This document shows positions 12,649 through 63,551 of a stretch of 64,000 nt of DNA, piece by piece. The DNA comes from Methanolobus zinderi (GTDB lineage Archaea; Halobacteriota; Methanosarcinia; Methanosarcinales; Methanosarcinaceae). Below the pieces are notes generated by a model. It was given only the letters and a program-made list of their open reading frames with translations. It was not told the origin of the DNA and searched no databases. Position numbers and translations under genes: made by a program. The stretch spans positions 2,595,332 through 2,659,331 of the forward strand of contig NZ_CP058215.1 in the NCBI RefSeq assembly GCF_013388255.1, written 5' to 3'. Within the stretch, counting starts at the first letter, position 1, and each line of letters begins with the position of its first letter.

Positions 12649-14772
12649 ATGAGCGAAAAATGTCAGGAGTGCGACGGGAAAGGTTACAGGGTCGTCGGCT
12701 CAAATAAATGTCCCGAGTGCAAAGGAGCGGGAAAATCAAAATCCATTGATCTTATGAAGCTTTCCGAGAAAGACGTGGACAGCTTTCTCAAAAACGGTTC
12801 GGACTGCAACCGCTGTGGCGGATCAGGTGAGATTGAAACAAGAGAAGACTGTACAGTGTGTTCCGGAAAAGGTGCATTTTATAAGTGTAAGATATGCGGG
12901 AATGCAATAGCAGACCTGTATAACGGAGAAGAGGTATGTGCAGGCTGTGCTAAAAAGCAGATAGTATACAAGATAGATGATTCCTGCGACATCAATGAGA
13001 TGGAAGTAGGAAAATATTATCATTCAACAGTCAGGAACCTGGCGGACTTCGGAGTTTTCGTAGACCTGAACTCCAGTCTCAGGGGACTCATCCATTCCAG
13101 CAACCTGAAAGAGGAACTCAAAGTCGGTGAGCCGGTGATCGTAGGGGTCAAGGAGATCAGACCGAAAGGCAAACTGGACCTTGTACCTGTGAAGATAAAA
13201 GAATACCAGACTGTAGAGCTGGAAAAAGGCCTTCCTCTTAAGCTTGCATCCGAGGCGTCAGATCTTGTGGGAATGAATGTTAGGATGGAAGGAGAAGTAA
13301 TACAGGTCAAGCAAACCGCGGGTCCGACGATCTTCACCATAGCCGATGAGAGCGGACAGATATCCGCCGCTGCCTTTGAGAGTGCAGGGGAGAGAGCTTA
13401 CCCACATATCGGCTCGGATATGATAGTCTCCGCCACAGGTGAGATCACCTCCCGTGGCGATAGCGTTCAGCTTGAGATCAGAAGTCTTAAGAAAGTGAGT
13501 GGTGCAAAGGAAGACGAGATATTAAAGCGTATAGAGGCTGCCCTTGACAGAAGAGCTGAGCCTTACACTGTTGATTTCATGGTGGAGAGCGAGGTTCTTG
13601 AGAAGCTCAGGCCAGCCATGATGAAGGTTGCCAAGGAGATACGCAAGGCGGTGATCAAGTCAATACCCATACTGCTCCGACACCATGCTGATGCCGACGG
13701 AATGACCGCTGCCCTGGCGATCGAGAAGGCTATATTACCATTGATACGCGAGGTCAATGGCCAGGACGGAGAGTACTATTTCTACAAGAGAGCTCCTTCC
13801 AAGGCACCATTCTACGAGACCACAGATGTTGTGCGTGACATCAGTTTCGCACTTGAGGACATGGCACGTCACGGCCAGAAGATGCCACTTGTTGTCAGCG
13901 TGGATAACGGCTCAACCCTTGAGGACGTGCCTGCCATGAGACAGGCAAGGGTATACGGTATTGAAATGATAGTCGTGGATCACCATCATCCGGATGAGGA
14001 AGTCGATGAATTCCTCAAAGCACATGTGAATCCCGCACACGTCGGCGGTGACTTCGGTATGACAGCAGGAATGCTGTGCACTGAGGTCGCACGTATGATC
14101 AATCCGGATGTAGAGGACCTTATCAAGCATCTTCCAGCGGTTGCGGCAGTAGGAGACCGTTCCGAAGCGGAAGAAGCAAAGGATTACATAGACATGGTCT
14201 CTGACAGATACTCCCTGCAGGACCTGAAGGATATGGCACTTGCACTTGATTTTGAAGCATACTGGCTCAAGTTCAACAATGGTAAGGGAATACTTGATGA
14301 TATCCTCGATTTCGGTGACACAAAGGTACACAAAAATCTTGTGAAACTGTTATGCGAGCAGGCAAACGAGATGATCGACGAACAGATAGACGTCTGCATG
14401 GCCCATGTCAAGACACAGACACTTGCAAACGGAGCACTCCTGAATGTGCTTGATGTGGAAAACTATGCCCACAAGTTCACATTCCCGCCACCGGGCAAGA
14501 CATCGGGAGAAGTCCATGACCGCCTCTGCAAAAGATTCGAAGGCAAGCCAGTGATAACACTTGGTTTTGGTCCGGACTTTGCAGTGATACGTTCCAGAGG
14601 TGTGAGGATGAACATCCCGAAGATGGTAAAGGAACTCCACGAGGAAGTAAAAGGCGGAGGAGTCAACGGAGGAGGACACCTTGTGGTAGGCAGTATCAAA
14701 TTCGTTGAAGGAATGCGTACCGAAGTACTGTCCAAGCTTGCAGAAAAAGTAGGAGCCGTAGAAGTGGATTAA
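12649..14772 (+). CDS. archaeal RecJ-like DHH protein with zinc finger and S1 domains
   Basis: A 707-residue protein of the archaeal COG1107 type. The N-terminus has DnaJ-like CxxCxGxG zinc motifs (CQECDGKG, CPECKGAG, CNRCGGSG, CTVCSGKG) and a further four-Cys cluster. An S1 RNA-binding domain (about 120-185) and an OB-fold follow. The DHH phosphoesterase core comes next, with LLRHHADADGMT and VVDHHHPDEE, and a C-terminal Gly-rich GGGVNGGGH (DHHA1) motif. The family is linked to RecJ/GAN-type nucleases acting in replication or repair with GINS/CMG; activity of this one is inferred. The ATG at 12649 is preferred over an in-frame ATG at 12625 because AGGAC precedes it. Confidence 0.9.
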   Translation: MSEKCQECDGKGYRVVGSNKCPECKGAGKSKSIDLMKLSEKDVDSFLKNGSDCNRCGGSGEIETREDCTVCSGKGAFYKCKICGNAIADLYNGEEVCAGCAKKQIVYKIDDSCDINEMEVGKYYHSTVRNLADFGVFVDLNSSLRGLIHSSNLKEELKVGEPVIVGVKEIRPKGKLDLVPVKIKEYQTVELEKGLPLKLASEASDLVGMNVRMEGEVIQVKQTAGPTIFTIADESGQISAAAFESAGERAYPHIGSDMIVSATGEITSRGDSVQLEIRSLKKVSGAKEDEILKRIEAALDRRAEPYTVDFMVESEVLEKLRPAMMKVAKEIRKAVIKSIPILLRHHADADGMTAALAIEKAILPLIREVNGQDGEYYFYKRAPSKAPFYETTDVVRDISFALEDMARHGQKMPLVVSVDNGSTLEDVPAMRQARVYGIEMIVVDHHHPDEEVDEFLKAHVNPAHVGGDFGMTAGMLCTEVARMINPDVEDLIKHLPAVAAVGDRSEAEEAKDYIDMVSDRYSLQDLKDMALALDFEAYWLKFNNGKGILDDILDFGDTKVHKNLVKLLCEQANEMIDEQIDVCMAHVKTQTLANGALLNVLDVENYAHKFTFPPPGKTSGEVHDRLCKRFEGKPVITLGFGPDFAVIRSRGVRMNIPKMVKELHEEVKGGGVNGGGHLVVGSIKFVEGMRTEVLSKLAEKVGAVEVD

Positions 14773-38952: not shown

Positions 38953-39089
38953 TAAGTGAGCCAGCAGCGATTCGTAGTTCCCAAAGACTCTCGTACTTCA
39001 GTACAGTACGAAACGCTGGCAGGCTTATCTTCTGTGTTCGGGATGGGTACAGGAGTTGCCCTGCCGCTATGGCCGCCAGACTCACTTAC
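38953..39089 (-). rRNA. 5S ribosomal RNA
   Basis: Recognised by archaeal 5S sequence read on the minus strand (GGCGGCCATAGCGG near the 5' end, CCCATCCCGAACAC in the centre). The ends GTAAGTGAG and CTCACTTAC pair to form the terminal stem; mature ends are estimated to a few bases. It lies 15 bp downstream of tRNA-Cys. Confidence 0.93.
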
Positions 39090-39104
39090 ATATGATGAAG
39101 GTAA

Positions 39105-39176
39105 AGCCAAGGTCCGGATTCGAACCGGAATGAAATCGCTCTGCAGGCGATTGCGTAGCCGCTCCGCCACCTTGGC
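39105..39176 (-). tRNA. tRNA-Cys (GCA)
   Basis: A complete 72-nt cloverleaf on the minus strand. The acceptor GCCAAGG pairs with CCTTGGC, the anticodon loop CTGCAGA sits on an ATCGC/GCGAT stem, and the T arm contains GGTTCGAATCC. The 3' CCA is not encoded. It is placed between 23S and 5S. Confidence 0.95.
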
Positions 39177-39254
39177 GCAAAGAGCGATAATTCATTGTAG
39201 CCAGTATCTTAAATACTTTACCTTTTAGATCAAGATAATCACATACACATATCA

Positions 39255-42232
<2,978 letters not shown>

Positions 42233-42333
42233 TATATGCATGCTTATAATGATCTCATTGTGTTCGACATTGGGGATGTGAACACTTCATCCTTCCCTGG
42301 CAAAATTACTTGCCTGGTGCACTAATAATTAAA

Positions 42334-42406
42334 TGGACTTGCTGGGATTCGAACCCAGGGCCTTCGCCTTGCAAAGGCGACGATCTTCCAACTGATCTAC
42401 AAGCCC
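42334..42406 (-). tRNA. tRNA-Ala (TGC)
   Basis: A 73-nt cloverleaf in the 16S-23S spacer. The acceptor GGGCTTG/CAAGTCC contains the G3-U70 pair that marks alanine tRNAs; anticodon TGC lies in CTTTGCAAG; the T arm has GGTTCGAATCC. CCA is not encoded. Confidence 0.96.
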
Positions 42407-42428
42407 TTGAGCGTCCCGCTTGTGTATT

Positions 42429-42459
42429 GGATCTGGCAGTTTATCGATTTCTGACCGGT
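42429..42459 (-). other. 3' half of the 16S processing stem
   Basis: GGATCTGGCAGT (42429-42440) and TTCTGACCGGT (42449-42459) on the plus strand are complementary to 44107-44118 and 44088-44098, so the RNA pairs around the whole 16S. Unpaired bases between the two blocks fit a bulge-helix-bulge cleaved by archaeal splicing endonuclease. Confidence 0.7.
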
Positions 42460-42490
42460 AAGTGGTGATCGGCTTTGTGCCGATCTGCTT

Positions 42491-43965
<1,475 letters not shown>

Positions 43966-56592: not shown

Positions 56593-56828
56593 GCCCTATC
56601 TTAGGGTTGTACTATTCATATATGTTTTGTTTTGGCAAATAAGAAGATTTCAAAATACCACAAAAGAATATAGTTTGAAAAAGTGTCTAAAAAACAAGAT
56701 GCTATAAAATCAACTTCAAAATGAAAGATTTGATGCCCGGAGCGGGGATAAATCCCTAAATTTTATGCCAGTCTAATACTTTCACTTTACTAACTTTACC
56801 TATTTTTACCAGTTGGCTAATAGGTTTC

Positions 56829-57606: not shown

Positions 57607-57800
57607 TGGCTAAGGCAAAATACCGATTGAAGGACAACAATGGTAGTGGCATCTATGTCACTATCCCTTCCGAGCTTGCCTTTGCCCTTGGTCTCCGGGA
57701 CCTTAACGGGAACATCATCACCGGCTGTGTCAGGTTCGAGCTTGGCTATGATGATACAGGACCGTATGGTATAATCAGGCCGGCCATTGACCAGGAATGA
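57606..57800 (+). CDS. small AbrB-like DNA-binding candidate
   Basis: A 64-residue protein whose segment GIYVTIPSELAFALGLRD resembles the start of a SpoVT/AbrB swapped-hairpin domain (I-x-IP-x-x-x-x-x-x-LGL). Such proteins act as small repressors or antitoxins in archaeal elements. It overlaps the preceding gene by one base and the next by four (ATGA). Confidence 0.5.
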   Translation: MAKAKYRLKDNNGSGIYVTIPSELAFALGLRDLNGNIITGCVRFELGYDDTGPYGIIRPAIDQE

Positions 57801-59254
57801 AATTCCCTGAACCTGTGACCCATGAGTTCGGCTGTTTTTTGCACATAACAGACCTGAACTTCTACTTTGCAGTGGTCAATTACTTCTCCCACAATGTAGA
57901 TGATCCGTATAATCACTACATCAAGATAGGCCACCGAAACTTCAAGTTCTTCTCAAAACAAGGCGGCCTCTATAATCCAAAAACCAAGAAACTTGCATTT
58001 GAATACATGTTCCACTGGAAGGATGAAACAGGAGCATCAAAATGCAGTTATTCAATTAAACCTCTCTTTGGAGCAGGTACAAAGACAAAAAATGGTAAGG
58101 TCCTCAATCTTCCAACCGTAGGGACTCAGATCCATATCGAATCCTCATATATAGACCTAGACGAACACTTCGATATCATTTTTGAAATAATGGATTTCCT
58201 TGGAGCTTCACGCTTCCAGGATAAGATTGATCGTTCAAGGTCCACCATTTACCAGATGGCCAGGCATGTCCGATATCATGAGCGACACGAACATGATATG
58301 GTAGCCATGCTGCAGGCAATAGAGCAGGAGTCCTCTATGCTCGGAGACTCCAAGCTTGTAAAAACTCTCAAATCCGGTAAATACGATATGTATAAGCTGG
58401 ATAATCCCGATTTTTCAGTATGCAATTTAAGAACTGAATGGCAGCACAGCGTAAAATCATACCGTATCACCAATTTCCTTGACCGTGTACCCGAGGATCC
58501 TCTAAGACATCCCAAACTAGAAGTATTCCTCAAATCCAATACAAAATTAAACCCCTCTATCTCTGAATTCCTTTCCCTGAAAAGAGATCTGGATAAACTC
58601 CTGTATTCTCTTATCAGCTTCCTGAACCAACCCCTAGAGTACGTTTCTGACAACTACTTTAATGCAGAATCTGTTTTCGATCATCGTCATGATCTTCCAG
58701 AATGGGACTATAAGAACCAATCTCACCAGAGCCAGCATATAGACCTTGGAGAGAACATGAGAGCAGTCAAAGCCCTTGCATACATAGCCCTGCAGTCTGA
58801 AGGCTGTGCAGATTTCCGGGATATCCAGGAAGGAACCGAAATACCCGAGCGTTCCCTATGGCGTTACATCAATTACTGGAAATCGGAAGGATATCTCGAC
58901 ACAGTAAGGGAACACTGCACAAAGGTGTTCTTCAAAACAAGGAGCATCTGGGAAGCATCAAAACAGCCCCTTATAGACTTCTGCAGCGCATTCCACATAG
59001 GCTTCAAGAAGATATTCGGTGAGGTGTTCATAGATTCCGGAGTCATCCGACAATACCGGGAACGTGCCAAGAACCTAAGGATAATCAAATCCAAAAAGTC
59101 TGCTAAAAAGTCCCAGGACCAGGAACCTATTATCGTTGATAGTTACAGACATGCCGATAAACTGAGAAAAGAACTAAACGAACTTGGTGTTCATCGTAAG
59201 ATTGGAGTTCGGTCTAGCCACAACACAATGAGATACAGCCGTGTATTCAGTTAG
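57797..59254 (+). CDS. 485-aa mobile-element protein with winged HTH
   Basis: I do not recognise this protein with certainty. The N-terminal 150 residues are beta-rich with many aromatics. A central helical part (RHVRYHERHEHDMVAMLQAI, about 157-176) follows. Residues about 315-375 form a winged HTH (ALQSEGCADFRDIQEGTEIPERSLWRYINYWKSEG is its span, given here only in part: DIQEGTEIPERSLWRYI). The C-terminus is basic. Position at the end of a chain of tiny coupled genes suggests a replication initiator or regulator of a plasmid or virus remnant. No integrase or polymerase motif is visible. It ends in TAG. Confidence 0.6.
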   Translation: MKFPEPVTHEFGCFLHITDLNFYFAVVNYFSHNVDDPYNHYIKIGHRNFKFFSKQGGLYNPKTKKLAFEYMFHWKDETGASKCSYSIKPLFGAGTKTKNGKVLNLPTVGTQIHIESSYIDLDEHFDIIFEIMDFLGASRFQDKIDRSRSTIYQMARHVRYHERHEHDMVAMLQAIEQESSMLGDSKLVKTLKSGKYDMYKLDNPDFSVCNLRTEWQHSVKSYRITNFLDRVPEDPLRHPKLEVFLKSNTKLNPSISEFLSLKRDLDKLLYSLISFLNQPLEYVSDNYFNAESVFDHRHDLPEWDYKNQSHQSQHIDLGENMRAVKALAYIALQSEGCADFRDIQEGTEIPERSLWRYINYWKSEGYLDTVREHCTKVFFKTRSIWEASKQPLIDFCSAFHIGFKKIFGEVFIDSGVIRQYRERAKNLRIIKSKKSAKKSQDQEPIIVDSYRHADKLRKELNELGVHRKIGVRSSHNTMRYSRVFS

Positions 59255-59300: not shown

Positions 59301-61976
59301 TTAGTGTTTATCTCTAATTAGATTGAACTTAAGATTGTTTGAGTCAGCAACTTTGAACTTCATGCCTTCTGCAATGTCTACAGTGTTGTCCTTGCTGAGT
59401 GTAACGGTACATGTGTTCTTCATAACGATAACGTTGGAACCAATAGATTCGACTTCAAGTTTTCCAAACTTGTTGCCGATTTCAATCTCAAGAACATCCT
59501 TGTAGTCAATGAGCCAGAGACCTTCGACTACAACAAGGCTGTCTACTTGACCTTGGAATATATTGGTTACATGCACCCTCATAACTTCAACACCAATCTC
59601 ATCTGCAACATTGGTATTGAATATCCATGTTCCACGTGTTTTGTCACCAGCAATGATTACTCTATCATCTATGAATTCGCCGTTTCTTGATAATTCCATC
59701 CATACTTTGTCACCACTTACATCAATCTGTTTTGCGGTAAGTTCATAACCATTTGGCAGTTCAAGCGCAGAGCCGACTCTCAGGGTATACTTGTCGCCGT
59801 TGTCAAGGAGCAGCTTGGTTAACTTGTCTGGCGTGTTTTTCTTTAATGGAATATACTTATCTCCAAACAAGCCCATGGCGTTATAACTGTCTCCCCAAGC
59901 ACCAGATTCAAAATCAATCTGTTTAATTTGGGTTTCGTACGCAAGTCCACCTTTCATTATATTTCTATCATTGATAAAAGACCCACCGTAAACTTTAAGC
60001 TTTTCTCCGAAAACGAATCCATCAAAGTTAGTTGCGTTCATTTCGATAAAATCATTATCATCTGAACCTATTATATTGTTAAGATCTGTACCAGCATACA
60101 GCCTGCCTCTCACTGAAGCTGTACTTGCTGCTACAGTATCTATAGGATTCACTTTCGCAGCTAGTGGATGTTTTGTATTCACTATATTTGTAAGAATTTC
60201 ATTGTCTAATTTAGCTTTAGAAAGTGATTTTACCTTGGAAAGCTGTTCGACAAATAAATTCCGTACTCCTCGCAGATTAGAACCTGTCAGGTCTGTCCCC
60301 GTCAGGTCTACCTCTAACAGATCTGCCCCTATTAGGCTTGCCCCCGTCAGATTTGCTCCCTTTAGGTTTGCCCATGCTAGGTCTACTTCATTCATGCCCG
60401 CGTCCAGCAAGTCTGCCTCTCTCAGATCTGCATTCAGCAAGCCTGCTCCCTTCAAATTTGCATCCCTCAGTTTTGCCTCTCTCAAATCTGCATCTATCAG
60501 GCTTGCTTTCCTTAGGTCTGCTACTCTCAGGTCTGCCCCCCTAAGGTTTGCCCCCTTTAGGTTTGCCTCCCTTAGGTCTGCTACTCTCAGGTCTGCCCCC
60601 CTCAAGTCTGCCTCCTTCAGATCTGCCCCCCTAAGGTCTGCCTCCCTTAGGTCTGCTCCCCTAAGGTCTGCTCTTGGTTTAATTTCATATTCATGGGAAG
60701 ATGTATCTAACTCAATCTCTTTTGGAGCAATGCTACTGAGAAATAAATAAGTTCCAATGTTAGTTTCTTCAAATTGCTCTTCTCCACTTGAGAGAACATG
60801 AACAATCTTTTCATTTTTGCAGTAATCGTAGTATTCCTCTTTGCCTTCTTCTTTTTTAAAATTTGAAATTGCCTCATCCCTTTTTTCATCATCCATCCTA
60901 GCAATATTCTGAATTTCAAAAAGAATTTTTTGATTCCCTTTAATCTCATCCGTAAACTTAGGTGAAGAGAAGCATAGAATATTCCATTTAATCAAAAGCT
61001 CTTCTTCATATCCTAATTCACCTTTAAGTGATTCTCCTAAAATTCTCATCAAATTTAGTGAATTCAAAAATCGTATAATTTCTCTCTGATTGCCTTTCAA
61101 ACCTTTGACAATTATATCTAAATAGGGATCTAATTCGGAATCAGCTTTTAATTCATCTTTAATGAAAGACCTTATATGATCATCTTTTAGAAGAGGGAGA
61201 TCAAAATTTAGCTGGATCATCTTTTTAATATAGTCCACACCAGAAAAATCTTTTATGCCATTGTATTGAGCATCGATTGCTTTTGCAATCATAGAAATAT
61301 CAGTTCCTATAATGAAAAAGCATCCTTCTTGATCTAAAAATAGATTGATGGATTCTAAAACAGATGCTATATTTTTTGGAGAGCATCTATCCAAATCATC
61401 AATAAAAATTACCATAACTCCATCGTTATCTGTGTATTTACCTTCAGTTTTCTCAAGAACAAATGTTTGAAGTATTGTCTTCATGTAATCTTGGAAAAGG
61501 TCGAAAAATGATAGTTTATTTTGATATTCCGTCTTTCTAGTCCATTTTTCAAGTTCTGGACCATTTCCAAGAGTTAATATTTTCGCCAAATCACTCATCT
61601 GTTTTAACACATCTATTTTTTCAGAACCAACCAGAACTTTAGATTTAAGTTTGTCTAAAAGCCCTTTTCTTTCCATTTCTTCTAAAATTTCGCGTATCAA
61701 AGCTGCAAGCATTGAATCGCATTCTGAATATTTCCATGCATCAAACCATACGGTTTTGACCTTTCTTGTCTGTTTATCCAAAGTAGATTCATCTAATTTA
61801 TTTTTTAATGTTCTCATCAAAGTTGTTTTTCCACTACCCCATTTACCATTAATTGCTACTGTAAAAGGAGTCTTATTATCCTTGTTGAGAATAATTTTTG
61901 ATAAAGAATCTGCGTAATTCTCAAAATTAAAATGACTGGCATTACCTATTGGAGAATCTCTGTAAACTTTGGACAT
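59301..61976 (-). CDS. KAP NTPase / pentapeptide repeat / S-layer (DUF1608) fusion
   Basis: An 891-residue protein; an upstream in-frame ATG at 62000 would add 8 residues, but GGTG precedes 61976. In the longer numbering, a KAP-type P-loop NTPase spans about 20-330 with Walker A GKWGSGKT (52-59) and Walker B VIFIDDLDRC (197-206). About 27 pentapeptide repeats (AxLxx) span 443-577. Residues about 618-890 match a Methanosarcina S-layer domain: GYELTAKQIDVSGDKVWMEL, FQGQVDSLVVVEGLWLID and GMKFKVADSN. There is no signal peptide or membrane helix, so the S-layer domain would be cytosolic. KAP-pentapeptide proteins resemble phage-exclusion ATPases. A defence role is inference. Confidence 0.85.
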   Translation of the reverse strand: MSKVYRDSPIGNASHFNFENYADSLSKIILNKDNKTPFTVAINGKWGSGKTTLMRTLKNKLDESTLDKQTRKVKTVWFDAWKYSECDSMLAALIREILEEMERKGLLDKLKSKVLVGSEKIDVLKQMSDLAKILTLGNGPELEKWTRKTEYQNKLSFFDLFQDYMKTILQTFVLEKTEGKYTDNDGVMVIFIDDLDRCSPKNIASVLESINLFLDQEGCFFIIGTDISMIAKAIDAQYNGIKDFSGVDYIKKMIQLNFDLPLLKDDHIRSFIKDELKADSELDPYLDIIVKGLKGNQREIIRFLNSLNLMRILGESLKGELGYEEELLIKWNILCFSSPKFTDEIKGNQKILFEIQNIARMDDEKRDEAISNFKKEEGKEEYYDYCKNEKIVHVLSSGEEQFEETNIGTYLFLSSIAPKEIELDTSSHEYEIKPRADLRGADLREADLRGADLKEADLRGADLRVADLREANLKGANLRGADLRVADLRKASLIDADLREAKLRDANLKGAGLLNADLREADLLDAGMNEVDLAWANLKGANLTGASLIGADLLEVDLTGTDLTGSNLRGVRNLFVEQLSKVKSLSKAKLDNEILTNIVNTKHPLAAKVNPIDTVAASTASVRGRLYAGTDLNNIIGSDDNDFIEMNATNFDGFVFGEKLKVYGGSFINDRNIMKGGLAYETQIKQIDFESGAWGDSYNAMGLFGDKYIPLKKNTPDKLTKLLLDNGDKYTLRVGSALELPNGYELTAKQIDVSGDKVWMELSRNGEFIDDRVIIAGDKTRGTWIFNTNVADEIGVEVMRVHVTNIFQGQVDSLVVVEGLWLIDYKDVLEIEIGNKFGKLEVESIGSNVIVMKNTCTVTLSKDNTVDIAEGMKFKVADSNNLKFNLIRDKH
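60270..60674 (-). repeat. 15-bp periodic coding repeat (pentapeptides)
   Basis: About 27 tandem 15-bp units encode AxLxx pentapeptides. Near the N-terminal end of the array the DNA itself is almost identical: 60511-60542 and 60571-60602 match over 32 bases, indicating recent duplication of a 60-bp block. Confidence 0.85.
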
Positions 61977-62514: not shown

Positions 62515-63171
62515 TTGGGCAAAAAAATCGTGATTGACGCATGTGTTGCTATTGATTTAAATGTTCACAAAGTAAGTTTTTTAGACGATTTTTTAAATGT
62601 GCTTGGAGAAGACACAATACACATTTCTTCAATCAATTATCAGGAAATATTTAACGGAGACATTCGTAGAAAACTTCAGCGTTCTCCGAAAGTAAGTATA
62701 CATGAAAATGATCAATCGGCATTTGAACAATTTTCAGATGAGCTTGAACCTTTAAAAATAAATATGGGTAAAAAAGATCGCCATGTTTTGTTTCTAGCAA
62801 AAACAATAGATGCTGATTATGTTGTTAGTTCCGATTTAAATGTTGTAGATAAAACGGAAAAATATCAACGTTATAGAAATTTTGAACATTTAAGGCCACT
62901 TACTACAGTTTCTTTACTTGCATATTTATATAAACAAGGAAATATCGAGTATGATGTTTTTTTTGAGAAGAGTTTATATTTGTTCAAGAACAAAGAAATA
63001 GATAACGTATTAAATGATTTAAGTAGACAAAATCTCAATACTAATAGACAAGACCAAATCGCAATAATAAATGATTGCAAAAAAAATTTCAAATATAGAT
63101 TTGATTTATATAGAGAACCACTTAATAAGGAGTTAAGTCGTATTTGGTCTACAGTGAGGGTACAAACATGA
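62515..63171 (+). CDS. PIN-domain ribonuclease, probable toxin
   Basis: A 218-residue protein starting at a TTG with AGGAAGTGG just before it. The N-terminal 125 residues have the PIN arrangement of acidic residues: Asp8 (VIDACVAID), Glu44 (YQEIF), Asp88 (KKDRHVLF) and Asp107 (VVSSDLNVV). The C-terminal 90 residues are helical and of unknown type. PIN proteins of this form usually cleave RNA as toxins. The next gene overlaps its stop, and a SecB-like gene follows, so it appears to be part of a three-gene module. It is visibly A+T-rich. Confidence 0.8.
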   Translation: MGKKIVIDACVAIDLNVHKVSFLDDFLNVLGEDTIHISSINYQEIFNGDIRRKLQRSPKVSIHENDQSAFEQFSDELEPLKINMGKKDRHVLFLAKTIDADYVVSSDLNVVDKTEKYQRYRNFEHLRPLTTVSLLAYLYKQGNIEYDVFFEKSLYLFKNKEIDNVLNDLSRQNLNTNRQDQIAIINDCKKNFKYRFDLYREPLNKELSRIWSTVRVQT

Positions 63172-63551
63172 ATGATTTAATAAAAGATACTTTGCGTTCA
63201 CTATACGAAGGTGAAATGACTTTTTCCGAAGCTTCTAGTTTGCTTGAGGTTTCGAAAGACGAAGTTGAAGAAATGCTAGAATCTTTTGAGTGGGTACCTT
63301 CAGCAGAGCGTATATCTGAGCTTTGCGAAATTGAAAAAGAAACAATTTCATTGATTGAAAATAAAAATGAAACTGTTATTTTCAAGGTAACTGATAATTC
63401 TGCATATAGTTTTGAATCTATAGAATTTATGGAACCCGTTTCAAATTTTTCGATAAATACAAATACTCCAATAAGAACCTTCGCTCAATGTCCTCAAGAC
63501 AATATTGTTTTTAGTAGTACAGACGATGATGCTATCTCTTATATTCAATAA
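63168..63551 (+). CDS. HTH protein, probable antitoxin
   Basis: A 127-residue acidic protein. The N-terminus reads as an HTH (YEGEMTFSEASSLLEVSKDEVEEML, given as its core TFSEASSLLEVSKDEV) resembling UPF0175-type antitoxins. The rest is beta-rich and may wrap the toxin or meet the chaperone. Its ATG overlaps the PIN stop (ATGA) and GAGGG lies upstream. The order toxin-antitoxin is reversed compared with most pairs. Confidence 0.65.
   Translation: MNDLIKDTLRSLYEGEMTFSEASSLLEVSKDEVEEMLESFEWVPSAERISELCEIEKETISLIENKNETVIFKVTDNSAYSFESIEFMEPVSNFSINTNTPIRTFAQCPQDNIVFSSTDDDAISYIQ

Follow-up and report, generated by a model that had tools for sequence, protein, structure and literature searches.

Our analysis points to a small family of proteins in Methanolobus that are mobile, cytosolic and of defence type, each joining a C-terminal S-layer domain to an exchangeable N-terminal effector-like domain. 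The gene from which the family was recognised lies in a stretch of 64,000 nucleotides of the Methanolobus zinderi genome (hereafter the window; features in Table 1). It encodes 891 residues in one frame uninterrupted by stops (59301-61976, minus strand), and its homologues share the same start methionine. The first-pass annotation had described the product as a KAP NTPase followed by about 27 pentapeptide repeats and one complete DUF1608 module, and all of these parts were recovered by profile searches. The KAP_NTPase domain covers residues 18-288 (Pfam, E = 7.5e-39, 134 bits against a cut-off of 20) with both the Walker A (GKWGSGKTT, from residue 44) and Walker B (VMVIFIDDLDR, from residue 187) motifs intact. 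The pentapeptides number exactly 27 (residues 436-570; Pfam Pentapeptide, 3.1e-39) and are encoded by a 15-nucleotide repeat unit. The HMM search against DUF1608 (PF07752) that had been proposed as a check matched residues 645-878 to positions 11-259 of the 259 in the profile (E = 1.2e-60, 205 bits against a cut-off of 30), NCBIfam TIGR01567 also matches (E = 4.5e-55), and the closest structure in the PDB is that of the Methanosarcina S-layer protein MA0829 (3u2g, E = 1e-53).

Proteins of the MA0829/SlmA1 type, which share this domain (PF07752, DUF1608, TIGR01567), are exported and have a signal peptide, usually tandem domains, and a C-terminal membrane anchor (PMC3361143). The fusion protein, in contrast, has one such domain, no export signal and cytosolic partners. 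In agreement with the annotation, no hydrophobic N-terminus, signal peptide or membrane helix was found in it (the maximum 19-residue hydropathy is 1.3), nor does it have the inserted membrane helices seen in many KAP members, which are not obligatory. Signal peptides and membrane helices are absent from all five fused proteins described below, while the other S-layer ORFs with a readable N-terminus do have a hydrophobic leader. Judged from the sequence, then, the full-length domain of the S-layer family is present but its export signal and surface location are not; export was rejected given the lack of a leader or membrane helix, and the protein is predicted to be cytosolic. An assembly artefact or chimera was likewise rejected: the fusion is real, because the genome is a single closed contig of 2.7 Mb and homologous fusions are found in independent genomes.

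Table 1. Features of the fusion gene and its surroundings (window coordinates).
Feature	Position	Strand	Remarks
Attachment-site half, left end of element	56726..56744	.	AGATTTGATGCCCGGAGCG, repeat of tRNA 3' end
DUF7845/phrog_3288 gene (viral transcription regulator)	57797..59254	+	Neighbour, inside element
KAP NTPase-pentapeptide-S-layer fusion gene	59301..61976	-	891 aa, start MSKVYRDSP, stop included
C-terminal S-layer module and linker	59304..60164	-	Residues 605-891
27 pentapeptide repeats	60267..60671	-	Residues 436-570; Pfam Pentapeptide
KAP P-loop NTPase domain	61113..61925	-	Residues 18-288, Pfam
PIN-domain-like gene	62515..63171	+	Weak match (PIN, E = 0.06), by inspection; inside element
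135-aa partner of PIN-like gene	63144..63551	+	Antitoxin-like by position only; inside element

The suggested likeness of the KAP part to phage-exclusion proteins held up against models of known defence systems, the matches being PADLOC PDC-S20 (4e-31), PifA (2e-27) and QatA (1e-25). PifA (which serves T7 exclusion by the F plasmid), QatA and PDC-S20 resemble the fusion in their N-terminal KAP P-loop NTPase and their association with mobile DNA, but their models are without the C-terminal S-layer domain. For PifA, the presumed triggers are particular T7 proteins (PMC8594841). Membership of a QatABCD system was rejected at 111 bits against an equivalog cut-off of 600, and no qatB, qatC or qatD was recognised among the adjacent genes, which encode a DUF7845 protein, a PIN-like protein and small proteins.

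Homologues were collected by searching 100 relatives with the fusion protein, then 112 genomes of the family and then 186 of the order. Five fused genes with the same S-layer subtype and a cytosolic N-terminus were found, in 4 of the 186 genomes of the order, all of them Methanolobus; this count holds at the score level of the clade and does not cover other, lower-scoring kinds of fused PF07752 domain. A profile built from the five fused S-layer domains scores its members at 546-592 bits and the next sequence at 346. Three of the N-termini are KAP domains and two are nucleosidase/TIR-like. In genomes G007 and G019 the S-layer domain follows KAP with no pentapeptides in between; G019 also has a nucleosidase-S-layer gene at a second place. 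A scan of a wider collection of genome contigs turned up just one fused gene, the nucleosidase-S-layer gene of Methanolobus vulcani PL 12/M. Genome G026 has KAP and pentapeptides without the S-layer domain, in a gene broken by what appears on inspection to be an insertion-sequence transposase. When the N-terminal KAP domain was searched for across the family (112 genomes), only four Methanolobus genomes and two distant proteins came up. Neither the complete KAP-S-layer protein nor the alignment of S-layer domains found a relative among IMG/VR viral contigs, named phages gave no match to the fusion, and in the plasmid collection KAP and secreted S-layer matches occurred only apart from each other. 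KAP exclusion proteins, TIR/nucleosidase effectors and S-layer proteins are each known already; the combination of a KAP or nucleosidase domain with an S-layer domain was not found in the literature searched, which left most subscription journals out of reach.

In the G019 and M. vulcani proteins P0004 and P0005 the same S-layer module stands behind an N-terminal domain that starts with CFVIMPIG, contains the motif NPNVFYELG and is matched by no Pfam model. All six aligned homologues of this domain match the PADLOC profile for CBASS TIR effectors, and a profile of the six finds the DNPH1/Rcl nucleotide N-hydrolases (E = 0.001) with YELG, whose glutamate is conserved, in alignment. On the strength of these two resemblances the domain is best called nucleosidase/TIR-like. 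The SAVED or STING-like nucleotide receptor of CBASS TIR effectors is absent from P0004 and P0005, however, and the S-layer domain occupies the sensor position. A stand-alone relative of 159 residues, without the S-layer part, is encoded in a genome of a Methanosarcina-like genus (G139). Between G019 and M. vulcani the DNA of the nucleosidase parts is 97% identical and that of the S-layer parts 84%, a disparity which suggests that recombination has brought about an exchange.

The M. zinderi gene (genome G000) is carried by a provirus-like element of 16.35 kb inserted at a tRNA gene. The 19-bp sequence AGATTTGATGCCCGGAGCG at its left end is a direct repeat of the 3' end of this tRNA gene, which contains an intron, has a CAT loop and was assigned as tRNA-Met; the tRNA copy lies 16,351 bp away, beyond the window (C1:2668408-2668426). 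From 56726 the element fills the last 7.3 kb of the window, its right half extending beyond it to C1:2668426. Besides a phage integrase it encodes small membrane proteins, a candidate spike and a Zot-like ATPase of morphogenesis; the combination of integrase, tRNA attachment repeats and a viral morphogenesis gene is that expected of a provirus. At the same tRNA, G007 has a related element without the fusion gene (L137), and G019 and M. vulcani have an empty integration site. The provirus site is situated between polB and the region of the main S-layer gene (L137, 16057-18780; L009, 1207-3924), such that in two species a virus-like element integrates a few kb from an S-layer gene. Within the M. 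zinderi element, the PIN-like gene and the 135-residue gene (62515-63551) overlap in the manner of a toxin-antitoxin pair.

One of the two fused genes of G019 is casposon cargo (locus L034), accompanied by PolB, HNH and Cas1. The casposon has 21-bp direct repeats (400-420 and 13609-13629) together with inverted repeats at the 3' end of a tRNA-Leu gene, and so displays a Cas1-solo, PolB, terminal inverted repeats and a target-site duplication in tRNA-Leu. Its inverted repeat resembles GGGATATAGGTAAC, that of the experimentally active casposon of Methanosarcina mazei (PMC10359463). A 151-nucleotide inverted repeat in L034 was rejected as the casposon ends, one of its arms being inside polB; the casposon instead terminates in the short repeats at tRNA-Leu. 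A second inverted-repeat-like sequence begins just beyond the right repeat (13609-13640), with a truncated cas1 further on, and the locus probably holds tandem casposons.

The remaining three genes share one chromosomal spot by the deoxyhypusine synthase gene, outside provirus and casposon. It holds KAP-S-layer in G007 and nucleosidase-S-layer in G019 and M. vulcani, from which it follows that the N-terminal module has been swapped at a single spot. Upstream of deoxyhypusine synthase (L114-L127) the content of this spot varies among the genomes of the genus that were read, and by inspection includes, according to species, zeta-toxin-like genes, katG-like peroxidase genes, transposase genes and Schlafen/AlbA_2-HTH genes. 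The proposed inspection of neighbouring genes for defence functions was rewarded in M. vulcani, where the fused gene lies beside a short CBASS-like locus (L036, 10484-11970) that pairs a cyclase (CD-NTase, 2e-112) with a known type of effector (Cap15, 2e-67). The CBASS genes are convergent with the nucleosidase-S-layer gene, on the opposite strand, and do not form one operon with it.

These locations bear on the idea that the protein is a factor of the mobile element acting on its host, for example by binding nascent S-layer protein to help virions out of the cell, or by changing the surface so that superinfection is blocked. The provirus in M. zinderi and the casposon in G019 would suit such a role, but casposons have no virion, three of the genes are on neither kind of element, and a nucleosidase/TIR-like fusion partner is typical of immune effectors; we regard this explanation as improbable.

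Maximum-likelihood analysis of 75 S-layer domains placed the five fused ones in a single clade (support 100/99). The S-layer module is therefore of single origin and is the constant part of the family, the effector-like part having been swapped. Secreted proteins surround this clade in the tree, with multidomain surface proteins, and not the main lattice protein, as its sisters. Within it the nucleosidase pair is sister to the KAP pair, and the KAP-pentapeptide-S-layer protein of the window branches first, so that the simplest reading is that the nucleosidase took the place of KAP. Pairwise comparison gave dN/dS values of 0.21-0.34 (S-layer part) and 0.17-0.20 (KAP part), with dS up to about 0.9, and both parts are under purifying selection. 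This argues against a functionless chance fusion that was passively spread with mobile elements. Although such an origin would suit the rare and patchy distribution, the frames are intact in all five genes and the S-layer part was retained while the N-terminus changed, and we give the idea very little credence.

The fused S-layer domains also differ from secreted ones in composition. They are less acidic (net charge per 100 residues of -7.8 versus -13.3) and richer in lysine (7.1% versus 4.0%), yet keep 81% of the columns conserved among the secreted domains, which fits folded domains adapted to the cytosol. A module shared by two unrelated effector-like domains, and mobile with proviruses, casposons and defence genes, has the hallmarks of either a sensor or an assembly device in immune proteins. 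Among the explanations considered we favour, tentatively and at somewhat less than an even chance, one in which the S-layer domain is a sensor that mimics a surface protein and triggers the attached effector. Viral proteins that recognise or remodel the S-layer (fibres, spikes, S-layer-active enzymes) would engage the domain in the cytosol, and the effector would then fire, by ATP hydrolysis in the case of KAP or by nucleotide or NAD cleavage in that of the nucleosidase, leading to cell shutdown or exclusion of the second virus. For a provirus cargo, as in M. zinderi, the immediate role would be to keep out competing viruses. That the family serves in defence and that its S-layer domain does the sensing are inferences, as are the kind of ligand and the mechanism of killing.

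Published work on archaeal viruses leads us to favour the receptor-mimic reading. Two archaeal tailed viruses use the S-layer protein as their receptor (PMC12494034), and particles of the virus MetSV, which are produced in the cytoplasm of M. mazei, bind to its S-layer or to proteins associated with it (PMC9694453).

The main rival to the receptor mimic is a scaffold role, in which the S-layer domain oligomerises in the cytosol and so clusters or activates the KAP or nucleosidase domain, sensing being done elsewhere, by KAP itself, the pentapeptides or a nucleotide signal. In its favour, S-layer domains form the contacts of the lattice, and effector domains often require clustering; one S-layer domain is common to two different effectors, most of the conserved columns are kept, and pentapeptides replace or precede the S-layer domain in related KAP proteins (as in G026). 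Against this, the fused proteins have a single S-layer domain where lattice proteins have two in tandem, and that domain is most closely related to multidomain surface proteins, not to the main lattice protein. We consider assembly rather unlikely as the full explanation.

How closely the fused domains resemble the host's S-layer bears on what a sensor might detect. Their identity is 46-50% to the main S-layer protein of their own genome and 52-54% to surface proteins of another genus, and in no case does the closest surface protein come from the same genome (for M. vulcani the comparison set lacked an own-genome domain). Nearest kinship to the host's own S-layer was accordingly rejected in favour of the secreted multidomain surface proteins, and strict mimicry of that layer by a decoy is correspondingly less tenable. 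The sensor or decoy first proposed for this gene has therefore fared unevenly: it gains from the recurrence of the same S-layer clade on a second, unrelated effector-like domain and from genes on a provirus, on a casposon and beside CBASS, but loses from the fact that the closest relatives are multidomain secreted surface proteins and not the S-layer of the host. The same comparison tells against a sensor of envelope state, in which host S-layer protein left unexported or unassembled in the cytosol, for instance on building up when infection blocks secretion, would bind the fused domain and trigger the effector. The family of the fused domain does build S-layer contacts, and S-layer proteins are major expressed proteins in Methanosarcinaceae (PMC3361143), but the S-layer protein of the host is no close relative of the fused clade, and no tracking of it by the fused domain was observed; we hold this possibility to be a minor one.

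Other observations weigh against the receptor mimic itself. There is no sign of diversifying selection, all pairwise dN/dS values being well below 1; few genomes carry the family (4 of 186 by the fused-domain profile); and the S-layer glycans that some viruses probably contact would be absent in the cytosol.

In plants, NLR immune receptors with integrated decoy domains contain a copy of the pathogen's target. The logic proposed for the receptor mimic is alike, with no sequence relation, the mimicked component here being one of the cell surface. No prokaryotic integrated decoy of a surface component was found in the literature searched. The wider proposition, that prokaryotes use integrated decoys of virus receptors, in which a cytosolic copy of a surface domain with exchangeable effectors, borne by proviruses or casposons, responds to viral receptor-binding or S-layer-active proteins during their synthesis with abortive infection, we judge unlikely on present evidence, though not remotely so. 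Should the S-layer part prove to be a sensor, archaea and their proviruses would detect infection through an intracellular copy of the surface that viruses have to recognise, wired to a killer enzyme. The integrated-decoy principle of plants would then hold in prokaryotes as well, and viral receptor-binding proteins would be expected to act as immune triggers. With or without a decoy, the family presents a defence-type module with swapped effectors, carried by both a casposon and a provirus, and it is a directly testable candidate for the genetically tractable relatives in Methanosarcina. Elsewhere in the window, a complete rRNA operon (16S, tRNA, 23S, 5S, tRNA) is encoded on the minus strand at 38959-43965.
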